From the NCBI GenBank assembly GCA_902628235.1, contig CACOMD010000005.1:1-64000 (forward strand): 64,000 nt of DNA, given 5' to 3'. The notes below the pieces were generated by a model that worked only from the letters and a program-made list of their open reading frames with translations, did not search any database and was not told the DNA's origin. This DNA comes from an uncultured Prochlorococcus sp. Its GTDB lineage: Bacteria; Cyanobacteriota; Cyanobacteriia; PCC-6307; Cyanobiaceae. Position numbers and translations under genes: made by a program. Shown piece after piece: positions 26,731-29,727 of this stretch. Numbering within the stretch: the stretch's first letter is position 1; the number at the start of each line of letters is the position of its first letter.

Positions 26731-26973
26731 TTAATTTTCCTCAATAGTATTTTTGTATTCATTTCTAATTTGTTTTAATAAATTCTTTCTGTCTATTGAA
26801 TAAATCATAGAATCTCTTTTATACAAATTAAATCTTTCTTTTTTAGTTAAATTCATCCAAGAATTTAAATTATTTTTATTAAATTTTAATCCATTTCTTT
26901 TTTTTAATATTTTATTAAAGTAATTAACCTTTATATAGGTAAATAACTTAGCTATTGATAACTTAATTCTCAT
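26731..26973 (-). CDS. small basic hypothetical protein
   Basis: 80 aa; start overlaps the hisS stop by 4 bp (ATGA). Confidence 0.55.
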   Translation of the reverse strand: MRIKLSIAKLFTYIKVNYFNKILKKRNGLKFNKNNLNSWMNLTKKERFNLYKRDSMIYSIDRKNLLKQIRNEYKNTIEEN

Positions 26974-28265
26974 TTTTTAGCGGAAATATTTAAATTTAGA
27001 TTTTTTAAAATCCATTCTTCTAACTTAGCATTATCTTCTATTGATATTTTCAACTCATTATTATTTTCAATACTGTTATTAAATAATTTTATTGAAAATT
27101 CATTTTTCTTAGCCTCTTCATCTCCAATAACTACAACACTTTTTGCATTACATTTATTAGCTTTTTTAAATTGCCTTGAGAAAGAAGATCCACTTAAATC
27201 TAATTCTGTTATGAGATCAAAATTACTTAATATCCTTGATAAAGCTATTGCGAGCGATTCTGCTAATTGGCCCTTATTAACAATATAAATATCTGGATCT
27301 CTGCCTTTCTCTAAACTTGTCCCAGCTATTAATATCAATCTTTCTAATCCAATTGCGAAACCAATAGCGGGTGTTTTATCACCTCCCATTTGATCAATAA
27401 GATCATCATATCTCCCCCCTCCACAAACAGTCGCTTGAGATCCCAAGGCACTACTTGTAATTTCAAAAGCGGTATGACTGTAATAATCTAACCCTCTAAC
27501 CAATTTAAGATTTTCAACAAAAGGAATTTTTAAAAATTCGAGCTGGTTCTTTATAAATGAATATCTTTCTAAGCTTTTTTCAGATAAAAATTGATTTAAT
27601 TTTGGGGCATTTTCTAAAAGTCTCTGCGTATCAGGATTTTTTGTATCCAGTATCCTTAGGGGATTTTTATTTATTCTTGCCTTTGAGTCTTGATCAAGAT
27701 CATCAAAGTTATCTTTAAGCCATTTTAAAAAAGCTATTTTATAATTCTCTCTATCAGTTCTATCTCCAAGACTATTTATTTCTAAATTTAATTCACTTAT
27801 ACCTAATTTTTGCAATATGTCCCAAGCTAGAGTGATAATTTTGATATCACTATTAGGAGATTCATATCCTATGAATTCTACTCCTAACTGATGAAACTGC
27901 CGTTGCCTCCCTGCCTGTGGCCTTTCATATCTAAACATTGGCCCCATATACCATAATTTATTAAAAGTTCCTTTTAAATTACCATTATTAATAAGTGCTC
28001 TAGCTACTGAGGCAGTACCCTCAGGGCGAAGTGTGCACGATCTTTCACCTCTATCTAGAAATGTATACATTTCTTTGTTAACTACATCCGTACCTTCTCC
28101 AATACTTCTTATAAATAGTTCTGTCATCTCAATGATAGGGGTTCTTATTTCCTTCACATTTGCTCTTGATAATTGATCTTTTATAATATTTTCAACATTT
28201 TGCCATTTCTTCAATTGTTCAGGAAGAAGATCTGTGGTTCCTCTGAGATTTTTTAAGTTATTCAA
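26970..28265 (-). CDS. hisS: histidyl-tRNA synthetase
   Basis: 'LRGTTDLLPEQLKKWQ', 'TLRPEGTASVARA', 'LVRGLDYYSHTAFEI', 'CGGGRYDDLIDQMGG'. Confidence 0.97.
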   Translation of the reverse strand: MNNLKNLRGTTDLLPEQLKKWQNVENIIKDQLSRANVKEIRTPIIEMTELFIRSIGEGTDVVNKEMYTFLDRGERSCTLRPEGTASVARALINNGNLKGTFNKLWYMGPMFRYERPQAGRQRQFHQLGVEFIGYESPNSDIKIITLAWDILQKLGISELNLEINSLGDRTDRENYKIAFLKWLKDNFDDLDQDSKARINKNPLRILDTKNPDTQRLLENAPKLNQFLSEKSLERYSFIKNQLEFLKIPFVENLKLVRGLDYYSHTAFEITSSALGSQATVCGGGRYDDLIDQMGGDKTPAIGFAIGLERLILIAGTSLEKGRDPDIYIVNKGQLAESLAIALSRILSNFDLITELDLSGSSFSRQFKKANKCNAKSVVVIGDEEAKKNEFSIKLFNNSIENNNELKISIEDNAKLEEWILKNLNLNISAKK

Positions 28266-28359: not shown

Positions 28360-28788
28360 TTGGAAAAAGATAAAACATCAGATATTCAACATTGTGGAAC
28401 AAAACCCAAAAAAATTGCTTTTGGCATAGCACCACTTGGAATAATTTCTATTGGTATTGTTCCAATGGGTGTTGTAAGTATAGGAATTGTTCCAATGGGT
28501 GTTTTTTCTTTTGGAGCAGTTGCAATGGGTATTTTAAATTTATCTATTGTAGGGATGGGAATAATCTCTTCTGGTATTACCACAATGGGGGTTTGGGAAT
28601 ACTCACCTAGAGGAGGGACTCATAATCATAATTTAGAGAATAAATCTCTCCTTAAGAGGGAATCGAATTCAAAACAAACAAGTATACTTTTTGAAAATAG
28701 AATAGATGCAGAAAATAGAGCTAAAACAATTGGGTGCGAGGGGGCTCATAAGATGGGAGATAAGTGGATGCCATGTAATTCTCATTAA
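28360..28788 (+). CDS. decapeptide-repeat protein with C-terminal DUF3721-like domain
   Basis: Six ~10-aa repeats 'IVPMGVVSIG', then 'DAENRAKTIGCEGAHKMGDKWMPCNSH'; TTG start. Confidence 0.75.
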   Translation: MEKDKTSDIQHCGTKPKKIAFGIAPLGIISIGIVPMGVVSIGIVPMGVFSFGAVAMGILNLSIVGMGIISSGITTMGVWEYSPRGGTHNHNLENKSLLKRESNSKQTSILFENRIDAENRAKTIGCEGAHKMGDKWMPCNSH

Positions 28789-28806: not shown

Positions 28807-29727
28807 TCAATTTAATATTTCAACTTTAAAGTCTAATTCTGTTGCTTCCGTTTCAGACAATTTCCTAGTCCATGCCCCCTGAACAGGGCTATTCCATCTG
28901 AAACCAGCATTTTTAGCCAATGATCTATCCTCATAACTAACTATTGCTTTATACAAATATTTAGGTTCGGTAGCTTTTAGTAAAATTTCTTCAAGATTAT
29001 CAATTTTCTTAAATACCTCTGAAATATAAAAACAGTCAGCTAAAGCCCTATGCAAATTCCACACTGGAATATTAAAACCTAATGCTAGATCTGTGACGGA
29101 TGGTCTACTTTTGATATTTTTTTTAAATGACCAATTTATATCTTCTAAACTACATATCCATTTTTTGTTTAGAAAAGGTAAATTATCTTTCCCGAACCAT
29201 TTCTTATCAAAAGCAGCATTATGAGCAACTATAAAATCACTGGTTTCAACAAGTTTTAAAAAGAATTGAACACCCTCTTTCCAGGGTTGGTTAACATTTG
29301 AAACATCCACAGATATTCCATTAATAAATTCAGCAGCATTTGACTCTACTGGCAATAAAAAAGATAATTGTGAAAGAACCGATTTGAAAGGAACATTAAA
29401 GAGGATACAACCTATCTCAATGACTTCATCATTATTTTCATCTAATCCAGTAGTTTCGGTATCTAATATGAGAATTGATTCAATAGATTTTTTATTGGGA
29501 TGAGTATCAATAATCAAATTATCTGATTGAATTAACCTATTTTTATTAGATATTTTCTTAAAATTTTTGTTAAGGAAATCAAGTTGATCTAAATTATTGT
29601 TACTAAAATTTTCCAACTTTAATGCATAAATTACTAATTTTATATTGACGCATTTAGTAAAAATTTCTTTTAAATTAATATTAATTAAATAATCTAGGAA
29701 AATATTTTTTAACTTCACGATAATCAA
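28807..29727 (-). CDS. DnaQ-family 3'-5' exonuclease (DNA pol III epsilon-like)
   Basis: 'SILILDTETTGLDENNDEVIEIGCILF', 'FIVAHNAAFDKKWF', 'LHRALADCFYISEVF'; true start may be downstream of 29727. Confidence 0.88.
   Translation of the reverse strand: MIIVKLKNIFLDYLININLKEIFTKCVNIKLVIYALKLENFSNNNLDQLDFLNKNFKKISNKNRLIQSDNLIIDTHPNKKSIESILILDTETTGLDENNDEVIEIGCILFNVPFKSVLSQLSFLLPVESNAAEFINGISVDVSNVNQPWKEGVQFFLKLVETSDFIVAHNAAFDKKWFGKDNLPFLNKKWICSLEDINWSFKKNIKSRPSVTDLALGFNIPVWNLHRALADCFYISEVFKKIDNLEEILLKATEPKYLYKAIVSYEDRSLAKNAGFRWNSPVQGAWTRKLSETEATELDFKVEILN

Follow-up and report, generated by a model that had tools for sequence, protein, structure and literature searches.

Relatives of a Prochlorococcus decapeptide-repeat protein with a DUF3721 tail recurrently lie beside copper-control genes

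The window analysed here is a stretch of 64,000 nucleotides from a Prochlorococcus genome that is 71% complete (genome G000, contig C5). It carries, at 28360..28788 on the forward strand, a gene with a TTG start that encodes 142 amino acids: an N-terminus with HCGTKPKK, six decapeptides, a His-containing linker, and a DUF3721 tail. The gene stands alone between hisS (26970..28265, reverse strand), its divergent neighbour, and an exonuclease-like gene (28807..29727, reverse strand), its convergent neighbour. Both are conserved wherever enough flanking sequence is available (77/77 loci for hisS upstream, 104/104 for the exonuclease-like gene downstream), and the repeat gene lies between them at every assembled Prochlorococcus locus.

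The alignment of orthologs delimits an N-terminal element, QHCGTKPKK (residues 10-18; 28387..28413, forward strand), in which H11, C12, G13, P16, and K17 are invariant across the 35 aligned orthologs. The six decapeptide units, from IAPLGIISIG to ITTMGVWEYS (28429..28608, forward strand), are defined by the translation, its periodicity, and a match to the Pfam family GLTT (PF01744; E = 8e-15, 54.6 bits for a cut-off of 21). The protein has 30 self-matches at a lag of 10, whereas none of 2,000 shuffles exceeded 18. We call the fourth residue of the decapeptide, which precedes a Gly, the M-site; in the window protein it is Leu in unit 1 and Met in the other five. A variable linker follows (28609..28689, forward strand; from the ortholog alignment), with THNHN in the window protein and an HH or HxH motif in 99 of the 101 Prochlorococcus orthologs scored. 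The tail (residues 111-142, FENRIDAENRAKTIGCEGAHKMGDKWMPCNSH; 28690..28785, forward strand) is assigned to DUF3721 by Pfam match. It matches positions 1-32 of the 33 in PF12518 (E = 1.6e-16, 60.2 bits for a cut-off of 27), includes the conserved Cys ... Trp-Met-Pro-Cys core of that family, and has C126, G128, H130, M132, W136, M137, P138, C139, and H142 invariant in the 35 aligned orthologs. The first-pass annotation of this DNA had described a decapeptide-repeat protein with a DUF3721 tail, which the period-10 test and the two Pfam matches bear out; the six units it listed and the C-terminal stretch DAENRAKTIGCEGAHKMGDKWMPCNSH are found in the translation exactly as it gave them.

The TTG codon lies exactly ten codons 5' of the HCG motif in 102 of 104 Prochlorococcus orthologs, and in 102 of 104 it is the sole possible ATG, GTG, or TTG after the upstream stop codon. 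Pairwise comparisons of the repeat region with that of the window give dN of 0-0.04 and dS of 0.15-1.2, and dN/dS for the window gene is about 0.04 or less; by this measure, the repeat gene is under strong purifying selection. A mis-called ORF is ruled out by the conserved start, the synteny, and the dN/dS, and the notion that the ORF might go untranslated, raised by the annotation itself on account of the TTG start, fails on this sequence evidence. The Prochlorococcus assemblies in which the repeat gene was not found are the same 12 in which hisS was not found (G002, G003, G005, G006, G012, G018, G019, G030, G031, G033, G035, G036; one of them 99% complete). Because hisS is missing there too, the absence is most simply an assembly gap, and gene loss in these genomes is rejected as far as shown. 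A search for phage or plasmid carriage of the repeat gene gave no match, and the scan of viral contigs returned three short matches only, all to the DUF3721 tail.

Some individual loci depart from this picture. One Prochlorococcus genome (G146; loci L204 and L205) has a second repeat-DUF3721 gene besides the hisS-linked one; this second gene has an ATG start and is paired with a small DUF3721 gene. The HNLC1 ortholog (L005:6001-6425) has a frame change in its DUF3721 tail (...NCKGLIRWVISGCHVILTK), which could be an assembly error. Locus L195 has an in-frame TGA within the repeat of its repeat-DUF3721 gene (L195:4133-4866), reflecting either a pseudogene or a sequence error, and the TGA-bearing gene is followed by an ORF of about 84 aa that has the repeat but no DUF3721.

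The length of the array is fixed. In 103 of 104 orthologs, the block from HCG to EYS is 71 residues long; the remaining sequence does not fit the search expression. This survey of repeat number refutes the suggestion that the array may expand or contract, and the fixed length rules out array instability. The repeats had also been described as near-identical at the DNA level. This holds for units 2 and 3, which are 80% identical, and fails for every other pair (30-67%), so that the description does not apply to the whole array.

Prochlorococcus, Synechococcus-like, and other picocyanobacteria share one plan: a Cys-containing N-terminus, six or seven decads, and a DUF3721 tail. Far from being unusual, as it had seemed at first, the combination of the repeat with a Cys- and His-containing tail is the standard picocyanobacterial architecture, and the pairing of repeat and DUF3721, whose lack of conservation would have counted against the annotation, is the norm in this group. 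Among the 390 genomes of the class that were scanned, DUF3721 scored above the cut-off in 63, all in the family of the window's genome. Many picocyanobacterial homologs have a small DUF3721 gene directly before or after the repeat-DUF3721 gene, and several of the small products are putatively lipoprotein-like or secreted-like, judged by eye, with His-rich tails. Other cyanobacteria have a repeat that is up to 60-62% identical, without DUF3721 and mostly with a His-rich tail. In these non-picocyanobacterial homologs, the M-site is Met or His at 106 of 126 positions. His occupies it 19 times, confined to the first three units, and never occupies the equivalent half-repeat site (Fisher 8e-6, a value that is too small because the sequences are related). 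Since the M-site exchanges Met for His, and rarely takes Leu or Ile, it would be better explained as a soft-metal ligand than as a packing residue.

AlphaFold2 was run on the 35-ortholog alignment, a shallow one that leaves out the wider homologs from the genome searches; the repeats reach a pLDDT of about 44 and the DUF3721 tail one of 81-87. The tail is modelled as a helix (114-123) and two strands (129-132 and 135-138) that form a beta-hairpin; in sequence, its Cys, His, and Met residues flank the hairpin and fall within it. The repeats alone gave one low-confidence helix (pLDDT 43). The best Foldseek match against the PDB has E = 4. Searching PDB sequences for solved relatives gave only designed repeat proteins (SAKe), weakly aligned, and these were rejected.

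The gene neighbourhoods of the repeat family are more informative, with relatives recurrently beside copper-control genes. Four loci (L188, L191, L260, L264) have petR-petP immediately downstream of the repeat gene and in the same orientation, separated from it by a short gap in L188 and L191; the pair comprises genes for a repressor of the BlaI/CopY type and a protease of the BlaR1/M56 type, and here as below the names PetR, PetP, and PetJ denote Pfam class, sequence similarity, and gene order rather than full orthology. A pair of this type also occurs 1.7 kb away on the opposite strand in L252. PetRP is the copper-responsive switch of petE and petJ, which encode plastocyanin and cytochrome c6 (PMC7896320). 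In L189 and L239-L243, from six species of a single genus, the repeat gene is flanked by a cytochrome c6-like (petJ) gene and a DUF1775 gene, with CopC-CopD next in line in L189, L239, and L240, and a petJ-like gene adjoins the repeat gene in L259 and L261. In L249 and L250, DUF411, a multicopper oxidase, and a P-type ATPase are encoded within about 4 kb of the repeat gene.

Counting a strict set of copper genes, 15 of 60 non-picocyanobacterial repeat loci have a copper neighbour and 45 are without one; of 40 similarly sized control windows, drawn from these genomes or related ones, none has such a gene (Fisher 2e-4, with related genomes counted separately, so that the loci are not independent). 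By lineage, copper neighbours occur in families f4, f12, f35, f37, and f44, and also in f70 if the P-type ATPase is counted. The PetR, PetP, PetJ, CopCD, and DUF1775 queries were chosen after L188, L189, and L191 had been seen. L249 and L250 nevertheless provide independent confirmation, because they were hit by the multicopper oxidase and DUF411 queries, which had been taken from DUF3721 loci. No copper gene of the query set was found within about 6 kb of the window gene or in the 80 Prochlorococcus loci (up to about 12 kb each).

We also read 20 further DUF3721 loci, picked by hand rather than at random. Five have a cassette of multicopper oxidase, MerR, DUF305, DUF3721, and PepSY-like genes, the oxidase being partly visible in two of them; the DUF305 protein CopM binds Cu(I) (PMC4335983). 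Three, all from Prochlorococcus, have DUF411 with DUF3721, one has an RND pump, one has a YHS-containing P-type ATPase with MerR, and four have an ABC-3 permease, three of these with ZnuA. One (L228) has no metal-gene neighbour of these kinds and shares its contig region with another DUF3721 pair. As copper or other metal genes lie beside most of the DUF3721 genes read, DUF3721 is by context a metal-associated domain. The Prochlorococcus sets (L216:3744-4766, L217:3348-4885, L218:3994-5035) have the order DUF411, DUF3721, and a small protein like the PepSY-TM-like gene of L219, with a MauE-like gene upstream in L217; they are possibly reduced copper cassettes, an assignment tested with Pfam in L217 and L219 only. 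In four Synechococcus-like loci (L220, L222, L232, L234), genes for an ABC-3 permease and a cytochrome c6-like protein are found close to a small DUF3721 gene, and three of these loci also encode a ZnuA-type binding protein. In L204:2442-4379 and L206:2565-4635, an OprB-like porin gene (Pfam-tested in L204) is divergent to a small DUF3721/repeat-DUF3721 pair, and the N-terminus of the porin has a His/Met-rich stretch, e.g., HHDHHMHDSHMNM.

The metal could be zinc, iron, or manganese instead of copper, with the picocyanobacterial DUF3721 branch belonging to Fur/Zur control and Znu-type uptake. About half of 17 picocyanobacterial repeat-DUF3721 loci have Fur-family or Zur/Znu neighbours, which keeps zinc or iron among the candidates: a Fur-family gene directly adjoins the repeat-DUF3721 gene in L196, L197, L198, L201, and L203, L195 and L206 carry Zur-like and ZnuB/ZnuC-like genes within about 2-4 kb, and ZnuB/C-like genes are present in L202. 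Small DUF3721 genes lie beside ZnuA/ABC-3 operons in L222, L232, and L234. The Zur regulon of WH8102 is small and contains uncharacterised genes (PMC9337993). However, the adjoining Fur gene is convergent and not co-transcribed with the repeat gene, and we found no Zur-box-like palindrome at either the window gene or the repeat operons of picocyanobacteria, the only one in L195 being near znuC. Zur regulation of the repeat gene was rejected on this ground. The putative Met and His ligands and the petRP, petJ, CopCD, and multicopper oxidase neighbours also favour copper, and we consider a zinc, iron, or manganese protein unlikely.

The repeats might also be read as structural, as in the first-pass annotation: a hydrophobic beta-solenoid or membrane-associated scaffold in which Met is a mere packing residue. 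The fixed repeat number fits such a scaffold, as do the Gly at nearly every fifth residue, the absence of charged residues save one Glu in the last unit, and a 19-residue hydropathy of up to +2.35. Yet His replaces Met at the M-site only, which simple core packing would not predict, the copper-gene neighbourhoods would be left unexplained, and AlphaFold2 supports no fold for the repeats; this makes a purely structural role quite unlikely. The adjacency to petR-petP could also mean that the protein is a copper-sensing adaptor, a regulatory partner of the PetP protease and not a metal store or carrier, of which the picocyanobacterial form would be a repurposed descendant. The short gaps in L188 and L191 speak for this reading, but the majority of family members are away from petRP, and we regard it as improbable.

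The association of the relatives with copper-control genes indicates that the window protein is probably metal-handling, and not a variable repeat array. This role is drawn from gene neighbourhood and residue patterns, and we infer metal binding from these. We give a probability of about 0.5 to the window protein being a small metal-handling cyanobacterial protein whose most likely metal is Cu(I). The decapeptide scaffold, with Gly at each fifth residue, would present one Met or His per decad and so form a ladder of soft-metal ligands, assisted by the N-terminal Cys and by the His-rich tail or linker. Picocyanobacteria would have added the DUF3721 module to the tail (Cys-x3-His-x-Met ... Met-Pro-Cys-x2-His), a putative further metal site. 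The repeat protein may then buffer copper or hand it on, near the machinery of plastocyanin versus cytochrome c6. A bolder version, in which five to seven Met/His residues of a fixed-length decapeptide solenoid are stacked as a Cu(I) ladder that is ancient in cyanobacteria, tied to the plastocyanin/cytochrome c6 decision, and fused by picocyanobacteria to DUF3721 as an unrecognised copper-binding domain, would define a new class of copper proteins; we find it rather doubtful.

The protein resembles several known systems in part. Pfam describes DUF3721 as a 33-residue domain of unknown function; the window copy is the tail of a repeat protein, whereas many other members are small proteins that start with a putative signal sequence (judged by eye). 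GLTT repeats were first described in nematode proteins, and the family is named for five-residue repeats; the cyanobacterial repeats match it (54.6 bits in the window, 67 bits in a cyanobacterial homolog), but their unit is a decapeptide in which Met or His keeps a set position. Pentapeptide-repeat proteins, which form a quadrilateral beta-helix, share the Gly at nearly each fifth residue and the ten-residue super-period, but Pentapeptide_2 scores 12.4 bits, below its cut-off of 26.4. The repeat model has the low pLDDT given above. CopM, the DUF305 protein of Synechocystis, is likewise small and rich in Met and His, and belongs to copper cassettes of cyanobacteria (PMC4335983). CopM carries a signal peptide and folds as a helical bundle in the periplasm (PMC4335983, PMC12292863), whereas the window protein starts with a charged stretch in which no signal peptide can be recognised, and the sequence of its repeats is quite different. 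The likeness to the PetR-PetP switch lies in the gene order of the four loci; the repeat protein is not itself a regulator or a protease, and the picocyanobacterial members are unlinked to petRP in the loci examined. Our searches of open papers found no literature on DUF3721 or the 'GLTT repeat' and nothing relevant on a 'decapeptide repeat' in cyanobacteria.

What is new here is a testable role in metal handling, probably of copper, for two uncharacterised families, as proposed from their sequences and gene contexts. Prochlorococcus is one of the most abundant phototrophs. It is among the most copper-sensitive phytoplankton, with copper shaping picophytoplankton communities (PMC13374865). Tractable laboratory cyanobacteria would allow tests of the repeat homologs that adjoin petRP. 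If the reading is true, a Prochlorococcus-wide protein without a described function and the DUF3721 domain would provide two new handles on metal handling in these organisms.
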